A stretch of DNA of 45,281 nt from a virus, in the IMG/VR virus record IMGVR_UViG_3300018421_000054, positions 1 to 45,281 of that record. One strand, written 5' to 3'. This document shows, piece after piece, positions 21,501 to 45,281 of this stretch; positions within the stretch are counted from its first letter, which is position 1, and each line of letters opens with the position of its first letter. Under the pieces are notes generated by a model. It saw only the letters and a program-made list of their open reading frames with translations, did not search any database and was not told the DNA's origin. A program made the translations under genes and the position numbers.

Positions 21501-24480
21501 CGGTAATAACTCCTATGGTAGATATGGTTGTATCGCAGACGGAATTGATGCAACTGAAACACCCCAAGCGACAACAGTAAACGCAAGAAATAACGAAGCA
21601 ACTGTTGAGTCGGTATTCATTGGCGATCTTGCTACAGGTGTTAAAGTTTTTGAATATTCAAATTGCGGTCAGGATTATACTTCAGCAACTGCCACAGTGG
21701 TTGGTTCCGGAACGGGCATAAGCACAACGTTTGACGAACTAAGAGACAATGGTATATTCGAAGCAAGAATAATTGACACAAGCGATTCAACTCCAGACGT
21801 TGGAGGAGGAGGCTTTGTAACCATAAATGCGAACGCACAGGCAAGCATTGATCCAGCAGTTACATCAGTTGGTTTGGTACTAAGCGCAACTGACGCGAAT
21901 GTTGAAAATGATTATCTTGGTATGAGAATCTTTATTAATTCTGGTACTGGTGCAGGTCAATATGGTGAAATAACATCATATGACGAATCAAGCAAAAAGA
22001 TTACGGTTAAGAGAGAATCAGATGGTCAACCAGGTTGGGATCATATCATTCCAGGTACTCCAAGTGTGACTATCATGGATACTTCTTTGAACTACACCAT
22101 CCAACCAAAACCAGTGTTTAGCGCACCTCCTACAACAGTAACTGAAGTGGAAGTGTCAACTTCAGGAACATACAATGATGTTGTTTATGGTGAAAACACG
22201 GAAACATTTGTGAATGTTGAAGGTACGGCAGGAACAGGAAGTGTTGTCGAAGATGATGGTTTAACCGCACTAAATGCAAAATTCTTAGTAACAAAATCCG
22301 GAAGAAATTATACAGCGGTAACGTTGTCATCCGGAGGAGCAGGTTATGCAGTGGATGATGTTGTTACTCTTTCAGGAGAAGATCTTGGAGGATCAACACC
22401 AGATAACGACATAACAATTACTGTTACGACAACAACTGACGATTCAACCAACTCAATATTAACGTATACTTGGGAAGGTAAACCAGCAGGTGGTAGATAT
22501 GTTGCGGTCAAGACTGGATCGGCAGGTGGATTAACATCACGAAACGGTACGACATGGTCTGCTGTTACATTACCTGCATCAGGAACATGGACACTTGCAG
22601 CAGGAAACAATAGATTTGTTGCAGCAAGAAGAGGAACAACAGCAGCCGCTTATTCACTCGACGGTGTGACATGGAGTTCTGCAACATTACCTGGTGCTGA
22701 CAACTGGGACAGCATTCAATACGGTGGCGGAGTATGGTTAGCGGTAGCAAGTAACACCAATGATGCTGCTTACAGTACCAACAATGGCCAAACTTGGTCA
22801 GCAGTTACTCTTCCAACAGTTGGAGACTCAACACTAAATGAATGGGTTGATGTTGCATATGGTAAGAATAAATTTGTTATTGTTGCTAATTCAAACAACA
22901 TTGCTGCCGTTGGTTCTTATAACTCAGGAACGGATACTTGGACCTGGAACGGTAACGTCATGGACGTTATTGCAGACAGTTCACAGAAAGATTGGACTTC
23001 AGTTGCATTTGGTAACAATAGATTTGTTGCAGTTTCTTCGACTGGTGATGTTTCATACAGTTTTGATGGAATTGTTTGGTATGGTGCAACTCTTCCGACA
23101 CAGGATGGTTCAACTGCACACTACTGGAAAAAAATTAGATATGGACAGGGTGTATTCATTGCTGTGGGTACAACGGGTGGAAGACCAATTGCAGGAGACA
23201 ATGTTGGAGAAGTAACAACATTTGCTGCTAAATCCTACGGTGGAAATATTTGGGAAGAATTAACATTGGCTACCAGCGCAGCATGGTCTGCGGTAACATT
23301 TGGTTCACCACACGATTCGGCGGAAGATTCAACTCCAGGTGGAAGAACAGGAAGATGGGTTGCAGTTGCTTCAGGAAATAAATTTAACACAATTCAAACA
23401 GGTGCAAGAGCACTTGGTAGAATTACATTTGCATCGGGTAGAGTTGCCCAAGTAAGATTATGGGAACCAGGTAGTGGATACGAAAAACTTGGAAACACCT
23501 TAACATTGGTAGATCCAAATAATACTGGAGATCCTGATTTTGAATTGAGAGTTGGCGACGGAGTATTACCTCAACCTACATTTAATAATAGAGGATCTAA
23601 CTATAATACATCAACTACCGTAAGCATTACTGGTGATGGATTTGCTGATATATACGCCGTTGGTAAATTTGTTACTGTTGAAGGATTAACAACTTATCCA
23701 GGTCCGGGTGCGAGAATTATTATCAACGGAAACGAAGCAGACAGTAGAACATTAGTGGCAATTACCGAACTTGGAGCAATTACTGACAACGGGTTGAGTG
23801 CAACATTTAGAATTTCTCCAACTATTGATATTAGAGAAAATGTTGGACACGGAACGGCTATTACCATTAGAGAAAGGTATTCTCAGGTTAGATTAACGAA
23901 CCATGATTTCCTTGACGTGGGAACTGGTAATTTTTCTGAAACAAATTATCCAGATTTATACTCTCAGGCAAATTATACATACATTGAGGCAAACGAAGTA
24001 TACGAAGAGTCGGGCGGTAAGGTATTCTACACATCCACTGACCAATCAGGTAACTTTAGAACTGGTGAACTGTTCGCTGTTGAACAGGCAACAGGTATTG
24101 TTACAATTAGTGCTGACTTCTTTGACTTATCTGGTCTAACAGAATTAAGATTAGGTGGTATTAGAGTTGGCGGAACAAGTGTTGTTATTAGAGAGTTTTC
24201 AACAGATCCACTATTTTCTGAGGATTCAAACAACATTGTACCAACGCAGAGAGCAGTCGCTGCATACTTGGCTAACAGATTAAGCGTTGGCGGTGAAGAT
24301 CTTGCAACCAACAGTTTTACTGCTGGTAATGTTAAGGTTGGACCAAGCGAAATAACAAACGTACTAAATCTTGGTATTAATTTCCCAAGAACAATGAAAT
24401 TTGAAGGAGACAAAGCGTCAGTTCAAGGATCGATCTTAGCACAAAACATGTTTATAAGATCCTTCGATCGCGGCTTTTAA
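18508..24480 (+). CDS. Giant modular tail protein/adhesin (1990 aa)
   Basis: Residues 1 to about 400 hold seven tandem repeats of roughly 55 residues (for example RGDWQSSTVYGVGDIVRQGG), resembling CBM5/12-type carbohydrate-binding modules. Then come YVSPNGSD and a parallel beta-helix-like region (RTVRYALERAADNYSGHTTI), one CRRDVxxxIDAxxYD module (about residue 818), EDMFYMRDATGLRNCTLSGL, SPYIQGVTV and a conserved VSNDFTQVIDDGIGA. A stretch of Asp-box-like repeats (SLDGVTW, STNNGQTW) follows. The C-terminus has HDFLDVGTGNFSETNYP and STDQSGNFRTGELFAVEQ. It resembles giant structural proteins of marine T4-like phages; surface-glycan binding is inference from the repeats. Confidence 0.8.
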   Translation: MAEFKISRIRYTWRNNWQAATVYNKDDIVKFGGSSYVCIRKHTSDPDFYADQSYYANPSDSAPSPAWSKMTDGVFYRGDWQSSTVYGVGDIVRQGGNLYYCATGHTSQSTWDVDLSKWTTYVISSHFKGVWTAGVRYGVGDLVRWGGAVYRANTGHTASSTGTELADQQSNWDIYTQNIDPVGAWQETTAYALYDLVLYQGTVFRCTTAHTSTSTFDATNFDLEFLGSGYEGEWSSSAYYGQGSVVKYGGVLYRANVSHDASDSAHEPIQSIYQTQGTPAWAELSKGYNFVGSWSSTVSYKTGDVVRRGGNLYVALLDTVSDGSTLDYLDTSNWELLTEGQHWRGVWVEDQVYSINDVVSYKGSVYKNNLEHTSSTENFPGDNGSGFFYWDTLIQGNELIGMTKEGQLLTYGLSRTLVGDQSTLGATGVDIGRIGEVIKINGSDNVVYQVYGGTPRQFYVSPNGSDAYDYPVPTYTTYAVTTTSVLLQAATGLNPAVYSDDDGQVYVDNVAKKSLTFEIGNIYTFTSSDESMRQYPLLFSSDNPNGTSQGGSIYDGDVVYYLDGTEVSRGDYISGYLTAAERSIEITVTSNTPSTLYYFVDGEMNYGGTISVIVNQSNTGGTILKPFRTVRYALERAADNYSGHTTIHVATGLYEEVLPLYVPPRTVVLGDELRSTTIKAKEAITALAGDADYTILTLNRIKSFISNVMQGLSVTKTASNPEDPVVILGGSSGFPLTVSIDDGITKAEELIDDIISYIDFHINDTGSEPTATGSNTANTAQGVKNAIRVLLANRTFFEYEAVAYMQTNYPGYAFVADNCRRDVRKYIDAIAYDIKYGGNWKSVLAARYYRNSVLGSLTEDMFYMRDATGLRNCTLSGLRGTLNPPNVFDLYRRPTGGIYVSLDPSWGPEDNTVWINTRSPYIQGVTVLGYGSTGQKIDGNLHNGGYKSMVSNDFTQVIDDGIGAHVTNNGRAELVSVFTYYSTVGYLSESGGKIRATNGNNSYGRYGCIADGIDATETPQATTVNARNNEATVESVFIGDLATGVKVFEYSNCGQDYTSATATVVGSGTGISTTFDELRDNGIFEARIIDTSDSTPDVGGGGFVTINANAQASIDPAVTSVGLVLSATDANVENDYLGMRIFINSGTGAGQYGEITSYDESSKKITVKRESDGQPGWDHIIPGTPSVTIMDTSLNYTIQPKPVFSAPPTTVTEVEVSTSGTYNDVVYGENTETFVNVEGTAGTGSVVEDDGLTALNAKFLVTKSGRNYTAVTLSSGGAGYAVDDVVTLSGEDLGGSTPDNDITITVTTTTDDSTNSILTYTWEGKPAGGRYVAVKTGSAGGLTSRNGTTWSAVTLPASGTWTLAAGNNRFVAARRGTTAAAYSLDGVTWSSATLPGADNWDSIQYGGGVWLAVASNTNDAAYSTNNGQTWSAVTLPTVGDSTLNEWVDVAYGKNKFVIVANSNNIAAVGSYNSGTDTWTWNGNVMDVIADSSQKDWTSVAFGNNRFVAVSSTGDVSYSFDGIVWYGATLPTQDGSTAHYWKKIRYGQGVFIAVGTTGGRPIAGDNVGEVTTFAAKSYGGNIWEELTLATSAAWSAVTFGSPHDSAEDSTPGGRTGRWVAVASGNKFNTIQTGARALGRITFASGRVAQVRLWEPGSGYEKLGNTLTLVDPNNTGDPDFELRVGDGVLPQPTFNNRGSNYNTSTTVSITGDGFADIYAVGKFVTVEGLTTYPGPGARIIINGNEADSRTLVAITELGAITDNGLSATFRISPTIDIRENVGHGTAITIRERYSQVRLTNHDFLDVGTGNFSETNYPDLYSQANYTYIEANEVYEESGGKVFYTSTDQSGNFRTGELFAVEQATGIVTISADFFDLSGLTELRLGGIRVGGTSVVIREFSTDPLFSEDSNNIVPTQRAVAAYLANRLSVGGEDLATNSFTAGNVKVGPSEITNVLNLGINFPRTMKFEGDKASVQGSILAQNMFIRSFDRGF
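18520..19700 (+). repeat. Seven carbohydrate-binding-like protein repeats in the 1990-aa tail gene
   Basis: Each unit follows W...Y..GD(I/V)V(R/K).GG..Y.....HT, then a variable turn and a closing W. Units are diverged at DNA level. Spacing is about 150-190 bases. Confidence 0.75.
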
Positions 24481-33533: not shown

Positions 33534-34745
33534 ATGCCACGATTTCAGGACATAGCAAAACCATTAGTAGGAAGATATCTGTTAGGAGCAGGTCCAGAAT
33601 TTGGAGGTTCATCTCCCGCTGACGGAGGAACTGCTAACATTTCAGCAACTGGCGGATTTACTACGGTATTTGACGCTGATGCAATTAATACAAAAAACTA
33701 CGGATCAGTAACATTTTCCGCGAGTGGCGCTCTGCCTGCAGGATTTTCTTTTGATGCGAATACTGGTGTATTGAGTGGTTCATACACTCTACAGGCACTT
33801 AACATTAACGGTGGTTTTGCCTTCCAGATTGTTGCAACTGAAGCAAATCCAACTCTTCCAATTTCGTCAGTGGCAACAAGAAACTTTACAATTTTCCTTT
33901 CTGTTCCTTTCAAGGTAAGACAGGTTGTTACGACTGGTTACATGATGGGCGGCTATCAAAATGGTCAGTTGTGGAGCAACGTTAACAGAATTACACATTC
34001 AAACGATTCGACAACCAACCTTGGTAACGGTAGGATTCAAAACTACCACTACAAGTCAGGAGCAACTGATTTGAATAGAACCATGATATGGAATGGTGGA
34101 TTCGTTACTGCGTTTAACATGAGAACGGAAGTAAGAAATGACACTGGCTCAATCAACTTCAATGGTGGTAATACCAGTTTTGTTTGGGATCCGGACAGAA
34201 ACTACGGTTGGGTAAATGGTGAAGGAAGCGGCCAAGTAAGAAGATGGGATTTCTCAACACTTACCATCACTTCAAATAGAGGAAGTGGATGGAACGATCA
34301 CTCTGCCTCCATATCAGGAGAGGACAGAGGTATTTACTGGGGTAACTCAGGACAGACTCAGCGTATCATATATTCAACAGAATCAATCGCAGGTGTCGGA
34401 ACATCAGCAGGCGCACACGGTCAGCAGAAGGGATTAAGTTCCAAGGATGGCAAGGGCTATGGTGGCGAACAAGGCGGTTATAATGGCGGATACCAATTCC
34501 GTGTAACCAGCACGGTAAATGAAGGAAGAATTACCAACGTAGGAAAACCATTCGGAAACATGGGCGAGGAAAACTACGGACATGGTCAGGACAAGGGTTA
34601 CTGCATTGGTACATATGACGGTAGCCAAAATAACCGATCGTTTGTATTAAACTATGCTTCAAACTCAGGATTTGAAACTGGAGGAACTACCCAGCCAAAA
34701 GGACACGGTGGATGCAGTTCAGGACACTGCGGTTTCAGAGAGTAA
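33534..34745 (+). CDS. Tail fibre/adhesin with putative-Ig domain and Gly-rich tip
   Basis: A 403-residue protein. After a short N-terminus, residues about 30-125 carry a cadherin/Ig-like He_PIG-type motif (GALPAGFSFDANTGVLSGSY). The rest is rich in Gly, Asn, Trp and Tyr with propeller-like repeats (FVWDPDRNYGWVNGEGSG; EDRGIYWGNSGQTQRIIYST). The end is unusual, GHGGCSSGHCGFRE, with two Cys and two His close together. It closes the fibre gene run and is probably a receptor-binding part. Function is inferred from domain style and position. Confidence 0.7.
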   Translation: MPRFQDIAKPLVGRYLLGAGPEFGGSSPADGGTANISATGGFTTVFDADAINTKNYGSVTFSASGALPAGFSFDANTGVLSGSYTLQALNINGGFAFQIVATEANPTLPISSVATRNFTIFLSVPFKVRQVVTTGYMMGGYQNGQLWSNVNRITHSNDSTTNLGNGRIQNYHYKSGATDLNRTMIWNGGFVTAFNMRTEVRNDTGSINFNGGNTSFVWDPDRNYGWVNGEGSGQVRRWDFSTLTITSNRGSGWNDHSASISGEDRGIYWGNSGQTQRIIYSTESIAGVGTSAGAHGQQKGLSSKDGKGYGGEQGGYNGGYQFRVTSTVNEGRITNVGKPFGNMGEENYGHGQDKGYCIGTYDGSQNNRSFVLNYASNSGFETGGTTQPKGHGGCSSGHCGFRE

Positions 34746-34749: not shown

Positions 34750-34757
34750 ACTAAATA
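34750..34757 (+). promoter_or_regulatory. Late promoter (ACTAAATA)
   Basis: CACTAAATAGTATG begins just after the fibre gene stop. Start at about 34763 leaves a minimal leader with SD GAGGAG. It could drive the two unknown genes and the oxygenase cluster behind them. Confidence 0.55.
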
Positions 34758-34775: not shown

Positions 34776-35807
34776 ATGTCTGAAAACAAAAACGAAATTA
34801 TTTTAAAAAACATATCAGCGGGTAGAGAATTAACGCCGAAAGAAGAGGAATTAAGAAAAAAATTTAATCTTACCCATTGGGATTCTAAGAACTATTTCGC
34901 CGAATACGACACTCCAGAATACAACACAAAATTAAGAACAAAACACTTGGATAAGTTATCCAATCAAGAGCAAACTCTTCTTGAAAGATGCCTTAACAAG
35001 ACTCTGATCAATCCAAAATATAAGATGAAATACTTTCAGGGTGCTGATCAATTAACACCTTTTCATAAACTTAGACAGTGGTTAATTGAATTAAAGACTC
35101 TTGAGCAGGCAATCGAAGAATGGGAAACCAAGAATGAAAAGAGAAAACTTGAATTAGAACTTGCCGAGATGAAATTTGAGGCAGCGGCCGATCCTATTCA
35201 AAAGAAAGAATTAGAAATACAACTCTGCGAACTAAGAGCATGGAATAATGGATTAAAACAAACTGCTGCACAGCACTATATAGAAAGACATCATTATATC
35301 GATCTTATTAACGAATTCCTTGAGTCAGACGAAGGAAAAACTGAGGATGGAAGATCTCTTCTTGAAGTTTTTGATACTCCTGAAGAGGATTTATACGAAA
35401 GACACTATTGGACCATTAGGCTTGCCAAACAAGCAGCAATGGATCTTTTAATGTATGGTAGAATTGGCTCGGGAAACATGAGCGCAATAGTTACTCTTGA
35501 TGAAGCTCAACAAAACGAAATCATAAGCATTGCACACAGATACAATCTTGAAATGACAGTTCACCAGGAAAAAATTAAAAATGCACATGCCAAGGAACTT
35601 GGTATAGATCCGGGTGCAGCAACAGCAATTAGTGTGGATACTTCAAAAGCATTTGTTACTAATGAAGAAGGAAAGGTCAAACAGTCAGAAAATTCTCAAC
35701 CAAAAGACAGAAACAATATGGAACAGAGAATGGAAGAAGTCAAAAAGGCACAGGAATCTGATGCTAAAAAACAAGGAGTAAAGTTACAAGATGTATATAA
35801 TCAGTGA
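34776..35807 (+). CDS. Helical hypothetical protein (343 aa)
   Basis: A charged, mostly helical protein; residues about 105-185 are a likely coiled coil (TLEQAIEEWETKNEKRKLEL, then AEMKFEAAADPIQKKELEIQ). Later segments are HYWTIRLAKQAAMDLLMYGR and a disordered Lys/Gln/Glu-rich tail. I do not recognise a family. SD GAGGAG is present. It overlaps the next gene by 17 bases, so the two are probably made together. It may be a structural or assembly protein; no enzymatic motif is visible. Confidence 0.7.
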   Translation: MSENKNEIILKNISAGRELTPKEEELRKKFNLTHWDSKNYFAEYDTPEYNTKLRTKHLDKLSNQEQTLLERCLNKTLINPKYKMKYFQGADQLTPFHKLRQWLIELKTLEQAIEEWETKNEKRKLELELAEMKFEAAADPIQKKELEIQLCELRAWNNGLKQTAAQHYIERHHYIDLINEFLESDEGKTEDGRSLLEVFDTPEEDLYERHYWTIRLAKQAAMDLLMYGRIGSGNMSAIVTLDEAQQNEIISIAHRYNLEMTVHQEKIKNAHAKELGIDPGAATAISVDTSKAFVTNEEGKVKQSENSQPKDRNNMEQRMEEVKKAQESDAKKQGVKLQDVYNQ

Positions 35808-36372
35808 AACACTGGGCGGTAATGACCCAAGACTCCTACCTGAAATGGAAAGACTGTATACCAATTGGCTTTACACTTCTTATTACATTCCAGAGGAAAG
35901 CAGAGGAAAAGTAAACTTATCCAGTTACGATGCAGAGGAAGTATCTGAGTCAGTAGCCAAGGCTGGAAAGTTTGGAATAGCAAAATACGAATCCGGCAAA
36001 TTTAAAATTGGATTGAGAACAGGAACATCAGCACACGAAGATGTTTTTATGGAATCAACAGAAGCAGATGGAGAAAAGACATACTATTTTCTGACTGCGG
36101 AGGAAGATGCTAACACTTGTGAATTCTTAAAAACAGAAATGAGAATTCACCTAAGGAAACACTTTAACTCTGTTTTATCAAAAGCAGATAACATGAGATT
36201 TCAAAGCAAGAAAAATGCTATCGAATCAGAAATTAATGCTTGTAATGATTTGCTATCAGCGAAAAAGCTCTTGCATAATAGATTTGGTCTATTAATTCAT
36301 AATCCGGGCGATCATGGTTTACCTCCAGAAGCAAAATTAGACATGTCTGAACCTGGACGTGACAATTACTAA
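35791..36372 (+). CDS. Hypothetical protein (193 aa)
   Basis: The protein begins MYIISETLGGNDPRLLPEME, overlapping the previous stop. It has a beta-rich middle (KFGIAKYESGKFKIGLRTGT; KTYYFLTAEEDANTCEFLKT) and a helical C-terminal third. Not recognised. SD AAGGAG lies 12 bases upstream. The end overlaps the start of the first oxygenase of the tailoring cluster by 14 bases, so it may belong to the same transcript. Confidence 0.65.
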   Translation: MYIISETLGGNDPRLLPEMERLYTNWLYTSYYIPEESRGKVNLSSYDAEEVSESVAKAGKFGIAKYESGKFKIGLRTGTSAHEDVFMESTEADGEKTYYFLTAEEDANTCEFLKTEMRIHLRKHFNSVLSKADNMRFQSKKNAIESEINACNDLLSAKKLLHNRFGLLIHNPGDHGLPPEAKLDMSEPGRDNY

Positions 36373-36946
36373 AGATATATTCGAAGTACAAGACTTCATC
36401 CCAAAGGAAAAACAACAGTGGCTGATCAACTATATGTTGAAGCCAAACTTTCCCTATGCATTTACTCATGATGCTGTAAAGGGTGTTAAGGAAAATGAGG
36501 ATATAATATTAGAAGATGATGCCATAGTGGGCATGTTTCATACTTTGCTTATAGATGGAACACCATGTTCTCCTCATTTTGATGACATTAAATGGATACT
36601 TGATTATTTTGAACCTCTTGGGCTAAAGGATAAACCTATTAATAGAATTAGAATTGGATTATTCTTTAAGAATCCCTTCACTGAATCTCATGAACCCCAC
36701 GTTGATCTAAGGAGTGATCACACAACGGCTGTTTATTATGTTAATGATTGTGACGGTGATTTTTATTTCTATGAAGAAAGTAACATAACACATCCATTCA
36801 AGAAGCCGACAGAATATACCCTAAAGAAAAAAGTAAGTCCAGCACAAGGAAAATTAGTAGTTTTCAACGGCAATCATTACCATGCAAGTTCCTATCCAAA
36901 CCAAAAACCTGTTAGATTAGCAATCACATTTAATTTTCTACCGTAA
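36359..36946 (+). CDS. 2OG-Fe(II) oxygenase (HxD type), first of the tailoring cluster
   Basis: A 195-residue dioxygenase. Ligands: HVD in EPHVDL (H114, D116), distal His in GNHYHASSYP (H173 or H175) and R186 in PVRLAITFNF for 2OG. The front half (FIPKEKQQWLINYMLKPNFP) is the usual N-terminal helix of these enzymes. The start is GTG at 36359, inside the previous gene; no ATG upstream of the core is available. These enzymes hydroxylate or otherwise oxidise C-H bonds, and some halogenate, but the Asp ligand here argues for hydroxylation. Substrate unknown. Confidence 0.8.
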   Translation: MTITKDIFEVQDFIPKEKQQWLINYMLKPNFPYAFTHDAVKGVKENEDIILEDDAIVGMFHTLLIDGTPCSPHFDDIKWILDYFEPLGLKDKPINRIRIGLFFKNPFTESHEPHVDLRSDHTTAVYYVNDCDGDFYFYEESNITHPFKKPTEYTLKKKVSPAQGKLVVFNGNHYHASSYPNQKPVRLAITFNFLP

Positions 36947-36954
36947 TATGCGCA

Positions 36955-36962
36955 CATAAATA
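36955..36962 (+). promoter_or_regulatory. Late promoter (CATAAATA) abutting the start codon
   Basis: CATAAATACGGT ends five bases before the ATG at 36967. The predicted start coincides with the ATG and no SD is present, so a leaderless message is expected. Confidence 0.6.
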
Positions 36963-36966
36963 CGGT

Positions 36967-37584
36967 ATGAACCATAATCCAGAGATCGTAACCAATCATG
37001 ACTTTCTTATGGTATTTGATAATGTATTAAAGCCAGAAGAATGTAATGAATTTATAAATTATTTTGAAAGACTTAAATCCATGAATCTTGTTTTTGATAG
37101 GCAAGAAACGCAGGATGGATTGAAACACGAAAAGAATGACGAAACTGCTTTTCTTCTTGACAAAGACGTTATTACCTTTACTAAAGAAACGCCAATATTT
37201 TTTAATTTTTTAAATAGATTTTGGGACTGTTATAAGATGTATGCTGACACATATAGCGTGTTACACACGAGTGAAATGCACGGAATGTCAAGCATTAGAT
37301 TACAAAAAACTGTTCCAGGACAGGGATATCATAACTGGCATTACGAATCAAGTGATTCTGCGGCAGCGAAAAGAATAGTTGCATGGCAACTTTATCTTAA
37401 CACCATTAACGAAGGTGGAGAAACAGAATTTTTATACCTCTCAAAAAGAGTAAATCCAAAAGAAGGTAGATTGGTCATTTGGCCAACTTCATACACACAT
37501 ACTCATAGAGGAAATCCTCCATTGAATAAAACAAAATATGTTCTAACAGGTTGGTTAGAATTTTTAGGGAATCCAAAAAAATGA
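36967..37584 (+). CDS. 2OG-Fe(II) oxygenase-like protein (HxE ligand)
   Basis: A 205-residue protein resembling prolyl-4-hydroxylase-type domains: SSIRLQKTVPGQGYHNWHYE, then AWQLYLNTINEGGETEFLYL, RLVIWPTSYTHTHRGNPP and KYVLTGWLEF. The apparent metal pair is H125 and E127 (HYE) instead of HxD, with distal H178 or H180. The 2OG-binding basic residue would be K190 instead of Arg. These are uncommon but viable variants. The stop overlaps the ATG of the next gene (ATGACA). Role unknown; it begins the coupled run of tailoring genes. Confidence 0.75.
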   Translation: MNHNPEIVTNHDFLMVFDNVLKPEECNEFINYFERLKSMNLVFDRQETQDGLKHEKNDETAFLLDKDVITFTKETPIFFNFLNRFWDCYKMYADTYSVLHTSEMHGMSSIRLQKTVPGQGYHNWHYESSDSAAAKRIVAWQLYLNTINEGGETEFLYLSKRVNPKEGRLVIWPTSYTHTHRGNPPLNKTKYVLTGWLEFLGNPKK

Positions 37585-39257
37585 CACCAAGAAAAATATT
37601 TTCAGTTCCTCTCAATCCAAAATTAAACGAAAAACAATTTGAGTTGTTTTATAATTTTCTTAATCAGCACAAGGATTGGATATATGATGTTTATTTTACA
37701 TCAAGAATGCCTCCTTTCTTTCAGGATGCAATGGGCGATACCATAACTACCCAGGAAAATGCACAAGGGGCGATAGAAAACGCTATTGGAATTAAAAAAT
37801 ATCTTGGTATTGAAATTAGTGCTACGTTTAATAATACTGTTGTTCCGCCTACACAGAAAAATCTTGACACATTCATTGAACAGTTTAAGTATCTCTATGA
37901 TGCGGGAATTAGAGTGGCTACCATTCCACATACCCATTGGATGGCAACAGGTCAAATTAAAGCCGCATTTCCCGATTTGTATGTAAAAAATACAATCCTT
38001 AGAGATGTGAGAACAGCAACAGAAATAGTTAATCTTGCAAAGTATGGATTTGACTACATCAATCTTGATAGAGATTTGATGAGAGATAGAGATACCCTGC
38101 TAAGACTTAAACAGGCAAAGGAATGGATTAAGAAAAACTTAGGCAAGGATATAAAATATAGTATGCTTGCCAATGAAGGATGCCTTGGATCATGTCCTAT
38201 GATGGTAGAACACTTTGAATACAATAACACAAGATACGGAAACCAACCACAATACTTTAACGATCCTATCAGCAGAGTAAGTTGTCCTAAGTGGGAAATT
38301 GAAGATCCGGCAGTTTATCTAAAAACTGCAAATCTTCCACCCTGGAGAGAAGATTGGGAAGAGTTTTTAAATGATCTTGGGATTGATGTTTTTAAGATGC
38401 ACGGTCGAGAAAACATTGAAAGATTAAACGAAACCATGCAAATTATAACCAAGTATGCCCAAGGGGAAGAATTTGTTGTTCCCGGATTTGAAAATTGGCT
38501 TCAAGAATCTAACATGGAGGAAAGACCAATTGATGTCTGGAGAGACAAGATCAAGAACTGTAAATTTGATTGTTGGGAATGCCAGTACTGCGATAAGATA
38601 CACGATAGAAAATCTGAACTTGATTATAGTGATCTGGTCAAGCACACTGTTGATTCAATACACAAGTCAGGCGTACCGTCAGTTTATAATGATATACCTG
38701 GATTAACATCACCAAGAGTACAAACATTGCTCAACCATCTTGCAAAGGGTGTTGGTAGTTGTCTTGAAATTGGAAGTTTTCTTGGAGCAACAACCTGTGC
38801 GATACTACAGAACAATAATTTAAATATGTTCTGCGTAGACAGGTGGGTATCTCAGATACAACCGCAGAGAAAGGACATAACTTTACCTTCAAACAGTAAG
38901 GATGCATTTTTAGAAAATATAGAAAAATACAAAGGAGATTCCATAATTAAGATTATTGATAATGATATTTTTGAAACTCCAACAGACATAATGAGTAATC
39001 AAATACAGATGTTTTTCTATGACGGTCCTCACGAACAGACAACTACTAAACAGGCAGTTGAATATTTTTGGAGTACATTTAAAAATGAAGTTCTAATGGT
39101 GTTTGACGATGCTAATTGGGACGGAGTTGTTAATGGAGCAAGAGAAGGAATAGAGTCAATGGGCGGAAAAATATCATATGATAAAATTATTCTTAATGAA
39201 GAGGAAAGTAAGAATGATTGGTGGAATGGAGTTTATGTTGCTGTGGTGAGAAAATAA
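37581..39257 (+). CDS. U32-peptidase-like (Fe-S) domain fused to a class I methyltransferase
   Basis: A 558-residue protein; ATG 37581 is chosen over the upstream TTG inside the previous gene. Residues 1-340 resemble the U32 family (UbiU/UbiV, TrhP, RlhA): VATIPHTHW, AKYGFDYINLDRDLMRDRD and ANEGCLGSCPMMVEHFEYNN (C201, C205), then C235 and a cluster C327, C331, C334, C337, plausible 4Fe-4S ligands. Residues 380-558 form a Methyltransf_24/TylF-like domain: GSCLEIGSFLGATT binds SAM, and FYDGPHEQ and VFDDANWDG follow. Known U32 proteins hydroxylate quinones, tRNA or rRNA without O2. I know of no described fusion like this. Reaction and substrate are unknown. Confidence 0.7.
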   Translation: MTPRKIFSVPLNPKLNEKQFELFYNFLNQHKDWIYDVYFTSRMPPFFQDAMGDTITTQENAQGAIENAIGIKKYLGIEISATFNNTVVPPTQKNLDTFIEQFKYLYDAGIRVATIPHTHWMATGQIKAAFPDLYVKNTILRDVRTATEIVNLAKYGFDYINLDRDLMRDRDTLLRLKQAKEWIKKNLGKDIKYSMLANEGCLGSCPMMVEHFEYNNTRYGNQPQYFNDPISRVSCPKWEIEDPAVYLKTANLPPWREDWEEFLNDLGIDVFKMHGRENIERLNETMQIITKYAQGEEFVVPGFENWLQESNMEERPIDVWRDKIKNCKFDCWECQYCDKIHDRKSELDYSDLVKHTVDSIHKSGVPSVYNDIPGLTSPRVQTLLNHLAKGVGSCLEIGSFLGATTCAILQNNNLNMFCVDRWVSQIQPQRKDITLPSNSKDAFLENIEKYKGDSIIKIIDNDIFETPTDIMSNQIQMFFYDGPHEQTTTKQAVEYFWSTFKNEVLMVFDDANWDGVVNGAREGIESMGGKISYDKIILNEEESKNDWWNGVYVAVVRK

Positions 39258-39258
39258 C

Positions 39259-40776
39259 ATGGGGATTCTGAAGGCAAATCATATAATAATCTTTGGTGGC
39301 GGAACAAGTGGTTGGCTCACGGCAACCTTTATGGTTAACAATATAAATTTTCCCTGCAAGATAACACTTATCGAAAGTACCAAACTTGGTCCAATAGGTG
39401 TAGGTGAAGGAACACAACCTGCTACAGCAAGATTTCTTTATGACGCAGGAGTTGATCCTAAGACATGGATGGAACCCAGCAACGCAGTATTTAAACTTGG
39501 TGTTGAATTTGAGGGTTGGACTGATAAAAACTTTTTTGTGGACAATGATTTTATTGAACACACACAAATAGGTCCAGATCTATACACTTCCGATTATTTT
39601 ATTGACAAGAGCCTTGACGAATATCTTGATTATCTTCCTGCCTACAAATTAGCAAAATTAAACAAGAGTCCTAAACTTGCAGGACTTGACACAAATTATG
39701 CATTAAGCGGGGATAGACAATTTGGAGCGGTACACTTTGCAGCATTAGGAATAGTTGATAGTTTAAAAAAAATAGTCGGAGATAGAATTAGAGCCGTTGA
39801 TACTGAAATTGTTGATATCAAGACCGATGAAGAAGGTATCAAGGAATTGATAGACAAGGATGGAAATTCTTACAGTGCAGATCTTTATATTGATTGTACA
39901 GGTTTTAATTCATTATTATTAGAAAAACAACTTGGTGTTGACTTTATGCCAGTAAATGATATATTACCGTGTGATAGAGCAGTAGCAATGCCAAAGCAAT
40001 ACACTAATCCCCAAGAAGAATGTCATCCATACACAAAAGCAACAACAATGACAGCGGGTTGGAGATGGACCATTCCTATTTTTAATAGGATAGGAAACGG
40101 TTATGTGTATAGTTCAAAACACATTTCTCCGGAAGAAGCAGAAAAGGAATTACGAGATTCTATAGGTGAGTACGAAGCAGAAGCCAATCATTTAACCATG
40201 AAATGTGGTATACACAAAGCAACAGCACATAAAAATGTTGTGGCAGCAGGACTGAGCGCCGGATTCGTTGAACCACTCGAAGCCACGGGTATTACGTTTA
40301 CGACCAAGGCAGTTGAAATCCTAACACATCTGCTCAATATTAATCAGGGAGTTTGGTCAAACAATTCTAAAAGATTGCTAAATGAAAGTTATGAAAGATC
40401 GTTTTGGGAAATTGTGGCATTTGTTTGGGTACACTATCATTTCAGCACAAAAAACGATACACCGTTCTGGCAAGATATAAGAAAACAAACAGCGGATAAA
40501 TTACCACCCCAGGTAATGGAAACAATTAAGAAATTTGTTCCTAACTTACACAGACAATTTTTCCTACATCCGGAAAGTAGTTTTCACATAGGACATTGGT
40601 TTCAAGTGTTGTTTCCAGGAGGAGCATACGAGAATCATCCAAGAATGCTTTCTGGAGACTTGGAAAAATATGCTGAGTACTTCATAGAAAATCAAAAATT
40701 TAGGGTTGAGAAAATCATAGAAATGTTTCCTAATCATTATGAATTTCTCAAGGAATGGTATGGAAGAAAAGATTAA
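39259..40776 (+). CDS. Flavin-dependent tryptophan-halogenase-like enzyme
   Basis: A 505-residue flavoenzyme. FAD site GGGTSGW (13-19), the halogenase signature GWRWTIP (267-273, the WxWxIP motif), and GLSAGFVEPLEATGI near the flavin. K79 in AVFKLG matches the catalytic Lys of PrnA, and E341 in EPLEATG matches its Glu, so the enzyme looks competent. The family makes HOX from FADH2, O2 and halide and halogenates indoles and other aromatics. Marine phage homologs exist, including the characterised VirX1 of a cyanophage. A reductase is not seen nearby, so host FADH2 would be needed. The start follows the fused U32 gene directly. Substrate and halide unknown. Confidence 0.88.
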   Translation: MGILKANHIIIFGGGTSGWLTATFMVNNINFPCKITLIESTKLGPIGVGEGTQPATARFLYDAGVDPKTWMEPSNAVFKLGVEFEGWTDKNFFVDNDFIEHTQIGPDLYTSDYFIDKSLDEYLDYLPAYKLAKLNKSPKLAGLDTNYALSGDRQFGAVHFAALGIVDSLKKIVGDRIRAVDTEIVDIKTDEEGIKELIDKDGNSYSADLYIDCTGFNSLLLEKQLGVDFMPVNDILPCDRAVAMPKQYTNPQEECHPYTKATTMTAGWRWTIPIFNRIGNGYVYSSKHISPEEAEKELRDSIGEYEAEANHLTMKCGIHKATAHKNVVAAGLSAGFVEPLEATGITFTTKAVEILTHLLNINQGVWSNNSKRLLNESYERSFWEIVAFVWVHYHFSTKNDTPFWQDIRKQTADKLPPQVMETIKKFVPNLHRQFFLHPESSFHIGHWFQVLFPGGAYENHPRMLSGDLEKYAEYFIENQKFRVEKIIEMFPNHYEFLKEWYGRKD

Positions 40777-41356
40777 ACAAATAGGATTAATACACTCGGA
40801 TCTGTTTCTTAAGAGAATAGGAACGCAAGAACAAATTGACAACCTTATAAAGGAAGTTAAAGATTGTCAAAAATTAAATCCCCAAGGTATTAATAAATCA
40901 AATGAAGGGTGCTGGAGATGGAACAATCCATGTTCAGATATTTCTTGGTTGGCTGAAGAAATAGTTAAGACAGTTGAAGTTGCTGCCAATCACTACGACA
41001 GCGTTGATCCTGTTTTTAAAAATGTTCCTGATTTAAGGGATGTGAAATTAAATTATTGGGCAAATGTTAATGGTTATATGTCAAGGAACTTTTTACATTC
41101 TCACAAATCTAAACAGTTTTCAGCAGTTTATTATCTGCAAGGAGAAGGAACAGGAGCAATTGTTTTTACGAACCCAGCAAATATTATGAGCGATTGTAAT
41201 TGGGGAGCACCATTTGTGAGAGAATTTAGATATGAACCTCGAGATGGTGATCTTTTGGTATGGCCCGCATGGATGCCTCACGAAGTTGATTTTAATCTAT
41301 CAAATAGAGAAAGAATTAATTTAGTGTTTGATATTGATATAAAGGAAAATGGATGA
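40760..41356 (+). CDS. 2OG-Fe(II) oxygenase-like protein (HxH type, TIGR02466-like)
   Basis: A 198-residue protein; ATG 40760 has an SD (AGGA) and is preferred over 40739. Motifs follow the putative 2OG oxygenase pattern: NYWANVNGYMSRNFLHSHKS, then FSAVYYLQGEGTGAIVFTNP, and DLLVWPAWMPHEV followed by R183/R185. The metal residues appear to be H113 and H115 (HxH) and H174, so the usual Asp is replaced. The start overlaps the halogenase stop and the stop overlaps the next ATG, so all three are coupled. Possibly acts on the same product as the halogenase. Confidence 0.75.
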   Translation: MEEKIKQIGLIHSDLFLKRIGTQEQIDNLIKEVKDCQKLNPQGINKSNEGCWRWNNPCSDISWLAEEIVKTVEVAANHYDSVDPVFKNVPDLRDVKLNYWANVNGYMSRNFLHSHKSKQFSAVYYLQGEGTGAIVFTNPANIMSDCNWGAPFVREFRYEPRDGDLLVWPAWMPHEVDFNLSNRERINLVFDIDIKENG

Positions 41357-42138
41357 AAAAGAAAATAATTTTTGCTTCTAAGATAAAAGGAATATCAGAC
41401 GTTTATCCTATTATTCCTGCAAAGAACTATAAATGGCGCTGGGCGGAAGCAATGAGAGAGGACCATAAAAAAGTAAACGCAGAATTAAAAGGAAAGCCTT
41501 ATACCCACACGTTTAGATGTCCTGGAATTTTTGATATTGCAGCCAAGGGTTACATCATACCGTTGCCTTGGGATGTGACCATAGAAACAACCGGCGACGG
41601 AATAAATTTTAATGCCGATTTACCAGGTGGACAGATAGAAAGACTTCTTGAAACACCACCCGTTGATGCTCATTCTCATGATACTATATCAAGAGATGTT
41701 CCAAAGGGCCCTGGAGTTTTAAAAACAGTAATTAAACTTCACACTCCTTGGCAAATTATCGTGCCAGAAGGATTAAAGTTTTTAATGTTACCCATACCGT
41801 ATCCAGATACTTTTGAGTTTGAAAATTTTGCAGGAGTTCTTGATAGTGCCCATAGCAGTGAAGTACACATACAATTAAAATGGAAAAAGTTGCTTGGAAG
41901 ACACACCATTAAGGCTGGAACTCCCATGGCACAACTTATACCATTGTCTGATGAAGAATTTGATTTGGTGGTGAGAGATTTTACCGATGAAGATTATGAA
42001 TGGCATGAGAAGAAGAAATATTTTCATACCATTAATATCACTCGAGATACTAAACTTGTGGCAAGGATGTACAAAAAGTTTTTCTATGATGATAAATCAT
42101 TATGGAATAGGATTAAAAAATTCTTTGGAAAAAAATGA
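41353..42138 (+). CDS. DUF6065-like protein
   Basis: A 261-residue beta-rich protein: FRCPGIFDIAAKGYIIPLPW, KLHTPWQIIVPEGLKFLMLP, EFENFAGVLDSAH and a cupin-like GTPMAQLIPLSDEEFD. This order (FxCPxxxD...LPxD...PWxIxxPxGxxxLxxPxP...AGVxD...GTPxxQLIP) is that of the DUF6065 family as I recall it, whose function is unknown. Start and stop both overlap neighbours by four bases (ATGA). It might be a carrier or binding protein for the tailoring enzymes; this is speculation. Confidence 0.6.
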   Translation: MKKKIIFASKIKGISDVYPIIPAKNYKWRWAEAMREDHKKVNAELKGKPYTHTFRCPGIFDIAAKGYIIPLPWDVTIETTGDGINFNADLPGGQIERLLETPPVDAHSHDTISRDVPKGPGVLKTVIKLHTPWQIIVPEGLKFLMLPIPYPDTFEFENFAGVLDSAHSSEVHIQLKWKKLLGRHTIKAGTPMAQLIPLSDEEFDLVVRDFTDEDYEWHEKKKYFHTINITRDTKLVARMYKKFFYDDKSLWNRIKKFFGKK

Positions 42139-42659
42139 TAGTACAGAAGTTTATTACTAACATATGGCAGGATCGATTTGAATTGACCCAAGACGTTATA
42201 AAAGAACTTGACGATTGGATTGATTTTGAAAAAGAACTTGATCCCACAGGAAGGAACGAATCAACAACGGAAAAGGGCTGGCAATATTCCTTTGGACCAA
42301 AGGATAAGATGCCAAGGTGGTTAGAAATATTACAACCTAATATTAAAAATATTAAAGAAGAAATAAAATCTAATTACATTAAGAGTTCTTGGGTAGTTGA
42401 TTACAATACGGGAGGGTATCAGGATCCACATTTTCACGAACCTGGTAATGATCTAAAAACAGTAATACTAAACCTTAGGGGCGAAGGAGAATTATTGTTA
42501 TTTGATCCAAGACCAATGGCAGTAAGCCATGGCGAATCAATAGTTGAAAAGGTTAAACTAACACCCGGAGACTGGATAGCAATACCCAGTTGGCTTGTGC
42601 ATAATACAAAACCCTGCAATGATCGCAGAACAATTTATGTTATGGATGTTTATTCATGA
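42135..42659 (+). CDS. 2OG-Fe(II) oxygenase-like protein (HxH type)
   Basis: A 174-residue protein with DYNTGGYQDPHFHEPGNDLK, VILNLRGEGELLLFDPRP, then GDWIAIPSWLVHNTKPCNDR. The likely metal residues are H99 and H101 (HFH), H156, and R164/R165 for 2OG. The family resembles its neighbours at 40760 and 42656 but has diverged. It overlaps both adjacent genes by four bases (ATGA). N-terminal half (RFELTQDVIKELDDWIDFEK) is helical. Function unknown. Confidence 0.75.
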   Translation: MIVQKFITNIWQDRFELTQDVIKELDDWIDFEKELDPTGRNESTTEKGWQYSFGPKDKMPRWLEILQPNIKNIKEEIKSNYIKSSWVVDYNTGGYQDPHFHEPGNDLKTVILNLRGEGELLLFDPRPMAVSHGESIVEKVKLTPGDWIAIPSWLVHNTKPCNDRRTIYVMDVYS

Positions 42660-43231
42660 AGAATAATTTTGAACAACTTGAGTTTGAAACAAAGCATCCG
42701 AGACCCACACTGATCTGGACCACAGTTCTTGATAATAAGGATGAGATAAATCAACAGATCATGGAAACAATTAATCAGGAAAGAAAAAATAATCCTGAAG
42801 GATACAATGATGAGATTAATATCAATGTGTGGCAAAGCGGCTGGGATATGGAAAATGCTTCAGGATTTAATAGGGTGACGCAGGCAGCAAAAATATTTAC
42901 AAAACAGATTGCTGACGAAAAGTTAAATTTTTCGATATTTAATCCACACATGATAGACTGTTGGTGTAATGTATACAACAAGGAAAGCGGCTGTGCTGTT
43001 CACTCTCATTTTCCATCAACATTTAGTCTTGTTTATTATGTTTCAGTACCCAAGGACAGTGGTAGAATATTTTTTCCGGATATTGAAATATATCTTGATC
43101 CCCAGCCAGGTCTATTGCTGTGTTTTAGGGGGGATACGTGGCATGGTGTTGAATTTAATAAGACAGAAAATGACAGAATTATTGTGGGCATGAATATTAT
43201 GCACCAAGATCAAACCAAACAAAGTTCTTAG
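42656..43231 (+). CDS. 2OG-Fe(II) oxygenase-like protein (HxH type, TIGR02466-like)
   Basis: A 191-residue protein with CWCNVYNKESGCAVHSHFPS, FSLVYYVSVPKDSGRIFFPD, then GLLLCFRGDTWHGVEFNKTE and NDRIIVGMN. Metal residues appear to be H116, H118 and H163, with R174 for 2OG. Last gene of the coupled run; the next gene has its own late promoter. It is the closest relative, by motif layout, of the oxygenase at 40760, suggesting duplication within the cluster. Confidence 0.78.
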   Translation: MKNNFEQLEFETKHPRPTLIWTTVLDNKDEINQQIMETINQERKNNPEGYNDEININVWQSGWDMENASGFNRVTQAAKIFTKQIADEKLNFSIFNPHMIDCWCNVYNKESGCAVHSHFPSTFSLVYYVSVPKDSGRIFFPDIEIYLDPQPGLLLCFRGDTWHGVEFNKTENDRIIVGMNIMHQDQTKQSS

Positions 43232-43236: not shown

Positions 43237-43244
43237 GATAAATA
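43237..43244 (+). promoter_or_regulatory. Late promoter (GATAAATA) abutting the start codon
   Basis: GGATAAATATTAGT ends at the ATG (43250). The 14-mer TAAATATTAGTATG is identical to the one at 12546. Predicted start coincides with the ATG and no properly spaced SD is present. Confidence 0.6.
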
Positions 43245-43249: not shown

Positions 43250-44359
43250 ATGGCAAGACTTCCTATTATAAACAATTTACGAGTAGTTCCAAGAGATTCG
43301 GATTTTCTCGGTAGAAAACTTGGGTCAAGAGGAGAGATCTATTACGATCAGGACAACAAGACTCTTAGGGTCTATGACGGAACACAGACCGGTGGCTATA
43401 GCATGGCCATTGATGACCTTTCAAACGTTTCGGATGCAGACTTCTTAACTAAGGCAACTGCTGCTGGCGTTGGTGGAGGTTCGGGAAGTTTTGAATTAAC
43501 TATTGCTGCTGATGATTCAACTGTTAGAACTATTACTTCTGGTAATACTCTTCAGTTTGTTGGTGCGAACGGAATAAGCACAACAAGTGCTGATGATGGT
43601 ACCATTACTATCGAAAACACTGGTAGTAAATTTACAACCTTTGCAGTGGATGGACAAACTAATGTTGTTGCTGATACTGCATCTGATACACTAACATTAG
43701 TTGCTGGTTCTAATGTAACAATCACAACTGATGCTGATAACGATTCCATTACTATTTCAGCAACTCCAGGAGGTGGTGGCGGAAATGCATTTGGAACTAT
43801 TGCAGTAAGTGGACAAACTAATGTTGTCGCTGAATCATCCGGAGATACACTAACTCTTGTTGCAGGCGCAGGTATTTCACTCACAACAAATGCAGCAACA
43901 GATACCGTAACAATAACAAATGCAGTTAGCAGTGTTTCTGATTTTACAGATCTAACGGAAGTACAGGCAGGAAACTTTACAATCGATCAAACGTATATGC
44001 CTGCAATTACTATGCTTACCGTTACTAACAGTGGATCATCTGCATATCTATTTGATCAATATACTGGAAATAATCCAACAGTCTATGCACTAAATGGTGC
44101 CACCATTGCATTTAAACTTTCAGGACTAACAGGACATCCATTTGAAATACAGGATCCTACAGCCACTCCTTACAATACTGGATTGATACACGTTGACATT
44201 GACGGTACTGTATCGACGGGCGCATCGGCACAGGGTAAGACACAGGGCACTCTGTATTGGAAAATTCCATCAAGCATATCTGGAGGATACAGATATCAGT
44301 GCCAAGCTCATGCCGGAATGGTAGGTAGCATTAGCATCAAAAACTTCGGTTCAATCTAA
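43250..44359 (+). CDS. Fibre-like structural protein with C-terminal cupredoxin-like domain
   Basis: A 369-residue protein. Residues 1-60 contain PIINNLRVVPRD, SRGEIYYDQDNKTLRVYDG; residues 125-225 hold two copies of a shaft repeat (VDGQTNVVADTASDTLTLVA and VSGQTNVVAESSGDTLTLVA). The last 120 residues look like a cupredoxin: FKLSGLTGHPFEIQ with H296, LYWKIPSS, and RYQCQAHAGMVG with C351, H354, M357. The C-x2-H-x2-M spacing is that of amicyanin, a type-1 copper protein. Thus the domain may bind copper. It follows the oxygenase/halogenase cluster and ends the late block. A virion location is inferred from the shaft repeats. Confidence 0.72.
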   Translation: MARLPIINNLRVVPRDSDFLGRKLGSRGEIYYDQDNKTLRVYDGTQTGGYSMAIDDLSNVSDADFLTKATAAGVGGGSGSFELTIAADDSTVRTITSGNTLQFVGANGISTTSADDGTITIENTGSKFTTFAVDGQTNVVADTASDTLTLVAGSNVTITTDADNDSITISATPGGGGGNAFGTIAVSGQTNVVAESSGDTLTLVAGAGISLTTNAATDTVTITNAVSSVSDFTDLTEVQAGNFTIDQTYMPAITMLTVTNSGSSAYLFDQYTGNNPTVYALNGATIAFKLSGLTGHPFEIQDPTATPYNTGLIHVDIDGTVSTGASAQGKTQGTLYWKIPSSISGGYRYQCQAHAGMVGSISIKNFGSI

Positions 44360-44366
44360 CAACCAC

Positions 44367-44395
44367 TTGACAATCAAGGTAAATTAATCTATAAT
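44367..44395 (+). promoter_or_regulatory. Consensus sigma70 promoter (TTGACA-N17-TATAAT)
   Basis: Perfect -35 (44367-44372) and -10 (44390-44395) with the ideal 17-base spacer, in the gap after the cupredoxin fibre gene. It would drive the transporter-like gene with host RNA polymerase, as for a T4 early promoter. No TAAATA late box is present here. Confidence 0.85.
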
Positions 44396-44427
44396 AAGTA
44401 ATAGTATAAAATTTACGGAGATTTCTT

Positions 44428-45281
44428 TTGGATTACAGTTTAATATATAGCGGACAGATTTATCTATTACTAATCGTATTTGTGATGATGATCGCGGGCA
44501 TGATCAAAGAGCATGGACTATTCAAGGACATCTTTTGCTACTTCGAACAAACACTTAAAAGCAAAAAAGCAGTAGTTGCCGTTGTAAGTGCCCTAACAGG
44601 TCTGTTACCCATCAAGGGTCGTGTAACCGTAAGTGCCGGTATGCTGGAAACACTTGCACCGGACAAAGGCTGTTGCGGCCGTGAGAAGTTTGGTCCAATT
44701 GACTATGTAAGCACACACCATTATTACTTTTGGTCACCCTTGGAAAAAACTGTTATCCTACCCATGGCGGCATTTGGTTTAAGTTACGGTGCTTGGATAG
44801 GAATCATTTGGCCTCTACTGTTAGTTTCAATTGCTTTTATCCTTGCCTATCTCATATGGGGAGTCAAGGAAACTGACATCGAACTTAAAGACTGTGAAAC
44901 GGATATAAAAATCAGTCGCATAACAAGATACGTATTTCCATACATAGCAGGTGTTGGCGCCATCATTGCTGGCATTGATTTTATATGGGCGTTTGGTTCA
45001 TTAACAATTTACTATATGTTCTGCACAAGAACATTTGATCTTAAGAAACTGCTTGGATATGTTGATTGGAAACTCGTAGGTTGGGTAGCACTTATTATTG
45101 TTGCGGCCAACTATGCAGTATCTAATACAGATAACATAAAAGCATTTTTAGGAAATGCTGGACTTGATATTAACACAGCAAGTGGATTTGTGTTACTAAG
45201 TTTGTTTAGTTTTGCAGGAGCCTTTGCACTAGGTTCCAGTTCAAGATTTGGTGCTATCACAGTATTAATGGCAAGCATCTA
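44428..45281 (+). CDS. Membrane transporter-like protein (DUF401-like permease), N-terminal part
   Basis: Open to the right edge; 284 codons visible. Start TTG 44428 with SD CGGAG at 44416-44420; the first residues are MDYSLIYSGQIYLLLIVFVM. Several hydrophobic segments are visible (for example YLLLIVFVMMIAGM, AWIGIIWPLLLVSIAFILAY, WVALIIVAANYAV, GFVLLSLFSFAGAFALG). A re-entrant-like LTGLLPIKGRVTVSAGMLE, then DYVSTHHYYFWSPLEKTVIL, resembles the DUF401/ion-transporter-like permeases, which are poorly characterised. It is a candidate auxiliary metabolic gene expressed early from a host-type promoter. The transported substrate is unknown and the family call is moderate. Confidence 0.7.
   Translation, partial: MDYSLIYSGQIYLLLIVFVMMIAGMIKEHGLFKDIFCYFEQTLKSKKAVVAVVSALTGLLPIKGRVTVSAGMLETLAPDKGCCGREKFGPIDYVSTHHYYFWSPLEKTVILPMAAFGLSYGAWIGIIWPLLLVSIAFILAYLIWGVKETDIELKDCETDIKISRITRYVFPYIAGVGAIIAGIDFIWAFGSLTIYYMFCTRTFDLKKLLGYVDWKLVGWVALIIVAANYAVSNTDNIKAFLGNAGLDINTASGFVLLSLFSFAGAFALGSSSRFGAITVLMASI

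Follow-up and report, generated by a model that had tools for sequence, protein, structure and literature searches.

Beside the gene for a predicted propeller fibre protein, a T4-like aquatic phage, probably a jumbo phage, carries eight tailoring genes. Together, these genes may form a late, exchangeable tail-fibre cassette that matures the phage's own fibre tip by hydroxylation, halogenation and O-methylation, a reading held here with moderate confidence. Throughout, the window is the whole stretch of DNA analysed (45,281 nucleotides), and all features described lie on its plus strand.

Profile matches bear out the eight-gene tailoring cluster that a first-pass annotation had placed at 36359–43231. 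All eight genes lie there on a single strand, beyond chance open reading frames, and comprise five 2OG-Fe(II) oxygenases (OG1 to OG5), one intact flavin halogenase, one fusion of a U32-fold domain to an O-methyltransferase, and one phrog_7084 protein. OG1 (36359–36946; PF13640 at 3.7e-6, phrog_274 at 4e-36) begins with a GTG that overlaps the preceding gene. Its HxD...H...R active site (H114, D116, H175 and R186, conserved in the alignment) fits the Fe-ligand pattern HxD/E...H with a distal Arg. OG2 (36967–37584; PF13640 at 2e-12) is prolyl-4-hydroxylase-like, matching the prolyl 4-hydroxylases 3itq/5hv0 in the PDB at 1.4e-8, and in the window reads HxE...H with both His (H125, H180) invariant. 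The remaining oxygenases have HxH instead, in an HxH...H...R arrangement whose residues are invariant: OG3 (40760–41356, alternative start 40739; PF13759 at 6.5e-13, TIGR02466 at 4e-13; H120, H122, H181, R192), the 2OG/cupin-type OG4 (42135–42659; phrog_81 at 2e-13, PF13759 at 0.003; H99, H101, H156, R165) and OG5 (42656–43231; PF13759 at 9e-11; H116, H118, H163, R174 in 6 sequences). The Pfam cut-off is passed by four of the five; OG4 falls below it and is placed only via phrog_81.

The flavin-dependent halogenase (39259–40776), of the tryptophan-halogenase family, matches PF04820 at 2.7e-96 over residues 9–458 and known halogenases in the PDB at 5e-68. Its catalytic residues are intact: the FAD-binding GGGTSGW (GGGxxGW) and GWRWTIP (WxWxIP) motifs are present, and K79 and E341 (in PLEATG) are invariant across 28 sequences. 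The viral flavin-dependent halogenase VirX1 (PDB 6qgm) is likewise phage-encoded and of the same family (E 1.7e-52), although the nearer matches of the window's enzyme are bacterial Trp halogenases. The gene at 41353–42138, previously called DUF6065-like, is present as a phrog_7084 member (2e-40). Its DUF6065 identity is not established, since PF19541 gives no match to the window protein and reaches just two of its 32 homologues, at an E-value of 0.081 at best. It also shows a weak dUTPase-like signal, with PDB matches at E>=0.2 and non-significant Pfam signals.

The proposed 'U32/methyltransferase fusion' (37581–39257; phrog_1458 at 4e-167; T4-GC354) holds for its class I methyltransferase half by profile (Methyltransf_24, PF13578, 1.2e-10; 42.6 bits vs a cut-off of 26.3). 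The U32 half holds by predicted fold only and not by sequence, as the U32 profile PF01136 finds nothing at E<=10 in the window. In the predicted model, Foldseek relates the TIM barrel to the U32 peptidase Mk0906 (5d88; E 2.3e-6, TMt 0.61), with MTHFR-type barrels fitting about equally well. Seven Cys in the U32-fold domain (C201xxxC205, C235 and C327xxxC331xxC334xxC337) are invariant in 34 sequences and may be ligands of an iron–sulphur cluster. The methyltransferase domain, with D481, D509, D510 and N512 conserved in the alignment, has a predicted Rossmann-type fold matched by Foldseek to SafC and MycF. The domain resembles small-molecule and sugar O-methyltransferases such as these, rather than protein methyltransferases in particular. 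A phmmer search of the fusion against the PDB gave no useful match, and a profile search gave weak methyltransferase matches only. Three matches emerged from a scan of genomes for the fusion, all on short MAG contigs and two with the phage neighbours, so they are probably stray phage DNA.

Within the cluster, adjacent genes share exactly 4 bases at four junctions, the halogenase follows the fusion after a 1-base gap, and OG3 overlaps the halogenase by 17 bases. These overlaps uphold the suggested translational coupling from 36967 onward, but not a single eight-gene operon. OG1 belongs to the preceding unit (starts at 34776, 35791 and 36359), and is set apart from OG2 by 20 bases that carry a separate TAAATA at 36957, which indicates two coupled blocks. 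Gaps of at most one base leave no room for a RiPP precursor in the coupled block, where none was found, and the earlier statement that NRPS and PKS genes are lacking holds in and near the set.

The late promoters proposed at 34752, 36957 and 43239 correspond to real TAAATA motifs (34752–34757, 36957–36962 and 43239–43244), standing before g343 (start 34776), the coupled block and the next fibre gene (start 43250), respectively. Of the 15 TAAATA copies on the plus strand, 6 fall no more than 60 nt from a gene start, where 0.7 would be expected. The full T4 consensus TATAAATA shows no enrichment, and only the shorter motif is enriched. Among related loci, against an expectation of 6.8%, TAAATA lies upstream of 54/120 g343 homologues (45%) and 32/36 homologues of the closing fibre gene (89%), compared with 2% of loci for the fusion and 7% for OG3.

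The fibre gene f403 (33534–34745; phrog_1417 at 3e-40; T4-GC351, 'sericin 1 precursor-like') encodes a Kelch-type six-bladed beta-propeller; no literature on 'sericin' in cyanophages was found. Its AlphaFold model (pLDDT 78) resembles the Keap1 kelch domain (Foldseek E 6e-10, TMt 0.72–0.81) and, as a predicted model, many other Kelch propellers (TMt 0.71–0.81). An Ig-like He_PIG stretch lies N-terminal to the propeller, and the C-terminal region GEEN...QNN...SSG is conserved. Between f403 and the fusion lie g343 (34776–35807; phrog_1409 at 3e-30, cyanophage T4-GC353) and g193 (35791–36372), both of them constant linked partners. The cassette is closed by a fibre/baseplate connector (43250–44359; phrog_677 'baseplate wedge tail fiber protein connector' at 1.4e-32). 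The nearby fibres had been described as Trp- and Asn-rich: f403 has a modest excess of Asn (8.9% vs 6.4%), but the fibres are not rich in Trp, f403 having 1.7% vs 1.5% for all window genes. A link between halogenase presence and the aromatic content of f403 was also tested and set aside. The raw difference is small (2.9% Trp in halogenase-bearing loci vs 2.5% in others, p 0.02), and the halogenase state changes just four times on the tree, which therefore offers no independent test.

In a linkage census of IMG/VR contigs, collapsed at 95% identity, neighbours were counted within 6 kb; for f403 and phrog_7084, contigs were scanned with narrow alignments. Upstream of the fusion, f403 was found in 47/47 distinct contigs, and g343 and g193 in 41/47 each. 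Downstream, any 2OG oxygenase was found in 38/50, the halogenase in 37/50 and phrog_7084 in 39/50. Taking f403 as anchor, the fusion follows in 45/45, a 2OG gene in 41/45 and the halogenase in 23/45, while g343 is linked in 44/45 and g193 in 45/45. The remaining fibre genes near by accompany the fusion much less regularly (f106 14/47, f230 23/47). The 2409-aa tail gene, whose co-occurrence had been put forward as a key test, lies within 6 kb in only 12/47. The halogenase often stands apart from the fusion, which is nearby in only 9/30 halogenase loci, so f403 is not its exclusive partner. The pairing of f403 with the fusion spans diverse contigs and two phage groups in fixed order. Synteny is hence highly conserved over dozens of distinct phage contigs, and the idea that the genes are rarely neighbours or are transcribed separately fails.

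Cultured relatives place this linkage at an exchangeable locus. Among isolates, the fusion occurs in 123 records and f403 in 105, all of them cyanophages; a megablast search with the region found no match among phage records. The order f403, g343, fusion, with a 2OG gene directly after, recurs in Syn33, P-SSM4, P-RSM1 and Syn19. Cyanophages in the databases already hold both halves of the cluster, but separately. The T4-GC351 to GC354 block (Syn19, Syn33, P-SSM4, P-HM2) has homologues of f403 and g343 and the fusion in the window's order, with a 2OG gene next in Syn19, Syn33 and P-SSM4. Unlike the window, it lacks the halogenase and phrog_7084, and its fusion is 43–44% identical to the window's. 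Conversely, the syn9/Syn10-type cluster (also in S-RIM44, Sf-FP1 and S-CREM1) shares with the window one or more halogenases (about 29–35% identical), phrog_7084, many 2OG genes in one direction and a position adjoining tail-fibre genes, but lacks the f403 propeller and the fusion. The ensemble, which the first-pass annotation did not recognise as a known set, is therefore less unique than thought, with 2OG/halogenase clusters in sequenced cyanophages and a pelagiphage. Nevertheless, the strict adhesin–enzyme pairing appears new, even if its parts are known.

In Syn19, S-SM1 and syn9 the fibre genes on the left (82–85% and 57–76% identity) and the flanking genes on the right (47–81%) are held in common, and three different sets of fibre-tip and enzyme genes lie between them, S-SM1 having no f403 (T4-GC351) gene. 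Alternative sets thus occupy one slot, with the enzymes exchanged along with the fibre-tip genes. This co-exchange, together with the Kelch-propeller gene being the fusion's most constant partner, sustains the suggested link to the nearby fibres. An excerpt of PMC7029224 describes a comparable variable island with extra enzymes beside tail fibres, the host recognition cluster (HRC) of pelagimyophages and cyanomyoviruses. Its enzymes are glycosyltransferases and radical SAM proteins, and a fixed adhesin–enzyme pairing is not described in that excerpt. The window ends at 45281, short of any neck gene (the HRC runs from VrlC to gp14), and contains the fibre neighbours.

How might such a cassette work? 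It would encode the propeller fibre first and then its maturing enzymes, of which f403 is the candidate substrate. The 2OG oxygenases would hydroxylate fibre residues, the halogenase would act on an aromatic residue of the fibre, and the fusion may hydroxylate and/or methylate a hydroxyl group. As enzymes and fibre would be made together late in infection, the tip may be decorated before or during assembly, which would tune how it binds receptors, how stiff it is or how the host recognises it. Prolyl 4-hydroxylases act on protein prolines, and the sequence likeness of OG2 to them would fit a protein substrate. More tentatively, the process could be a dedicated, RiPP-like multi-enzyme oxidative maturation, with tip and enzymes swapped as one cassette and attachment chemistry changing accordingly. 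Adjoining late phage genes, however, also stay together for other reasons. There is precedent for both chemistry and target: SrpI and MibH, flavin halogenases like the window's, respectively brominate and chlorinate a Trp residue of a gene-encoded peptide (PMC10858898), and mycobacteriophage virion proteins bear glycans (Freeman 2023, as cited in a passage of PMC12619734). Those halogenases act on short precursor peptides, whereas the window has no precursor and the candidate substrate, f403, is predicted to be a folded protein of 403 amino acids.

The main rival, in which the target is a glycan or metabolite of the host surface, is unlikely. During infection the enzymes would change a glycan, lipid or surface protein of the host, perhaps reshaping the receptor or shutting out superinfecting phages, and would sit beside fibres since both serve host recognition. 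The likeness of the methyltransferase domain to sugar and small-molecule enzymes agrees with this, as do a DUF401 membrane transporter-like gene that comes after the cassette both in the window and in many relatives, and HRC glycosyltransferases proposed, in the excerpted part of PMC7029224, to change the host surface. On the other hand, the window's cassette has no glycosyltransferase or sugar-nucleotide gene, its motifs resemble late promoters rather than the early class, the gene linked to it most tightly encodes a structural fibre protein, and OG2 is prolyl-hydroxylase-like.

Free Trp or small molecules are the usual substrates of the tryptophan-halogenase family. A small diffusible product, for example tryptophan or another host metabolite tailored to the advantage of the infected cell along the lines suggested for cyanophage prnA, could be envisaged, as could a tailored secondary metabolite, but we consider it improbable. 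Cyanophage VirX1 is reported to iodinate diverse small substrates (title of Gkotsi 2019, as cited in a passage of PMC10452541), and antibiotic protection has been proposed earlier (PMC2984593, PMC9964418). Yet no scaffold-making gene (NRPS, PKS or ligase) lies in or near the set, and the strict propeller pairing and co-exchange with fibre genes would be left unexplained.

It is very improbable that the oxygenases mostly consume 2-oxoglutarate or adjust the host nitrogen signal in an auxiliary-gene hot-spot, although this has been proposed for cyanophage 2OG oxygenases (PMC3037559) and such enzymes can be numerous (24 in S-SCSM1; PMC9602691). The halogenase, the methyltransferase fusion, the conserved order and the fibre partner would all be needless, and many divergent oxygenases, each with a conserved active site, suggest many specific substrates. 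Least credible is a chance grouping of unrelated roles at a recombination hot-spot, even if the fibre region is known as hypervariable (excerpt of PMC7029224). The reciprocal pairing of f403 with the fusion (47/47 and 45/45) in fixed order across two phage groups largely refutes it where these two genes and g343 are concerned; it may still apply to the halogenase and phrog_7084. DNA hypermodification was set aside, the oxygenases matching PF13640/PF13759 and other DNA-modification genes not being seen.

Marine phages carry many 2OG oxygenases and tryptophan halogenases, for which published proposals include nitrogen signalling, DNA repair and protection from antibiotics. Strict propeller pairing and the exchange of tips and enzymes in one slot turn these into one directly testable idea, for which cultured Syn19, Syn33 and syn9 are suited. 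If the fibre tip is indeed matured in this way, virion modification would gain a new class, and the cassette would offer enzymes for halogenating, hydroxylating or methylating folded proteins.

The eight tailoring-type genes that the first-pass annotation recognised at 36359-43231 are borne out by Pfam, PHROGs and NCBIfam matches. Probable metal- and 2OG-binding residues are retained in all five 2OG-Fe(II) oxygenases (OG1-OG5; 36359-36946, 36967-37584, 40760-41356, 42135-42659 and 42656-43231). OG1 and OG2 have an HxD/E...H pattern and the other three HxH...H, a pattern shared with PF13759/TIGR02466-type proteins; prolyl 4-hydroxylases are what OG2 resembles (PDB 3itq/5hv0, E 1.4e-8). In the halogenase (39259-40776) the FAD and WxWxIP motifs are intact, as are Lys79 and the catalytic Glu, two residues that are invariant in 28 relatives. 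The proposed U32/methyltransferase fusion (37581-39257) holds for its second domain, a class I O-methyltransferase resembling SafC and MycF, while the U32 half is assigned from predicted fold only, as a TIM barrel that resembles U32 peptidase Mk0906 (E 2.3e-6) and has seven invariant cysteines. The U32 relatives UbiU/UbiV, RlhA and TrhP participate in hydroxylation reactions, which makes hydroxylation followed by methylation a plausible role for the fusion. The protein at 41353-42138 is phrog_7084, with just weak dUTPase/DUF6065 signals; its former DUF6065-like label is not supported.

Viral-contig scans found hundreds of relatives, and the synteny sought in metagenomic contigs proved strikingly constant. 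The near-constant order is long fibre, small fibre proteins, f403, g343 (34776-35807), g193 (35791-36372), (OG1-OG2), fusion, halogenase, OG3, phrog_7084 and OG4. The fibre protein f403 (33534-34745), beyond the originally delimited interval, is predicted to be a Kelch propeller; its polar motifs GQQK, GEEN, QNN and C-terminal SSG are retained even in distant family members, and its gene often occurs in two or three tandem copies. After collapse at 95% identity, f403 lies near the fusion in 47/47 fusion loci and the fusion near f403 in 45/45 f403 loci, counts that describe the closest 80 relatives per query, picked by similarity, rather than all phages. The fusion is essentially phage-only (three MAG contigs among 84,980 genomes). 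The halogenase is an optional member, present in 37/50 fusion loci and 23/45 f403 loci; it is also found elsewhere, and a tree of 80 fusion proteins shows just four changes in its presence. A second, distant halogenase resembling the cyanophage type lies downstream, sometimes on the opposite strand, in cassettes of relatives L012, L013, L014, L031, L032 and L033; in L040, L042, L046 and L048-L060, two diverged phrog_7084 copies share a cassette.

Tight coupling across 36967-43231 was confirmed: four junctions overlap by 4 bases and one by 17, and one leaves a 1-base gap. The two genes that precede OG1 are coupled with it, and a TAAATA motif stands between OG1 and OG2. Across 136 loci bearing the fusion, this late-promoter-like motif precedes g343 in 45% and the closing fibre gene (43250-44359) in 89%, against 6.8% expected, and the fusion in only 2%. 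Such motif placement suggests that the enzymes and the fibre genes probably share late promoters.

In cultured cyanophages, a common slot is bounded by fibre GC346 (82-85% identical) and GC347 on the left and by GC357 and GC43 on the right. Syn19 and P-SSM4 (also Syn33) carry f403, g343, the fusion and a 2OG gene there. S-SM1 has other fibre-related genes and several 2OG genes, with no fusion, halogenase or full f403, and syn9 combines a different set of fibre-tip genes with two halogenases, phrog_7084 and numerous 2OG genes. Fibre-tip genes and enzyme sets change together within the slot, and the window's cassette joins a Syn19-type f403/fusion module to a syn9-type halogenase/phrog_7084 module. 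In public cyanophage records (e.g. NC_015285, NC_047734), 2OG genes of these clusters are labelled denV/DNA endonuclease V, minor coat protein or ferrochelatase, probably wrongly and apparently through PHROG-label carry-over.

The 45,281-base IMG/VR virus contig carries T4-like baseplate, tape-measure and portal genes; the portal is nearest to those of large T4-like phages such as Atu_ph07, Phosso, PA5oct and CBB (46-50%), and one relative with the same genes sits on a 245-kb contig. The window is a fragment, likely of a jumbo T4-like phage. It also encodes a fibre protein of 1990 aa that contains seven carbohydrate-binding modules of the chitin-type CBM_5_12 family (18508-24480) and a SegE-like GIY-YIG homing endonuclease within the structural region (1134-1583). 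An isolated minus-strand gene (2276-3160) is T4 baseplate hub-like and has a TATAAATA motif immediately before it (3207-3214). At 44428-45279 begins a multi-span DUF401 membrane protein (10/11 homologues match, best 4.7e-11), kept directly after the cassette in many relatives and possibly a transporter belonging to it. Window 43769-45278 and L010:14894-16400 are 84% identical in DNA and 99% in protein, against 71-78% for L010's other genes, which suggests that the DUF401 gene was exchanged recently or is under strong constraint.

For the cassette, enzymes, active sites, linkage, exchange and a late-type motif are established. The most likely reading, at about even odds, is a cassette making a fibre tip plus the enzymes that would mature it; substrate, residues and benefit are inferred, and f403 is the best candidate substrate, linkage being the sole ground. 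The chief rival, an unlikely one, is that the enzymes act on a host glycan or on a surface molecule. In its favour, pelagimyophages carry glycosyltransferases in this region, which is known as a host recognition cluster (PMC7029224), and the fusion's methyltransferase part is similar to enzymes for sugars and small molecules. Published metabolite-tailoring and 2OG-level hypotheses (PMC3037559, PMC2984593, PMC9964418) account poorly for the constant fibre partner.

Phage halogenases occurring singly, arrays of 2OG genes and hot-spots at fibre genes have been described before (PMC3037559, PMC2984593, PMC9964418, PMC7029224, PMC9602691). In the literature searched, largely outside subscription journals, no account was found of f403 and the fusion being strictly paired, of a U32/O-methyltransferase fusion, or of fibre tips and enzymes being exchanged together. 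Fibre-tip maturation falls within a known frame, phage virion-protein modification and variable fibre islands; demonstration of halogenated, hydroxylated or methylated fibre residues would make it categorically new.
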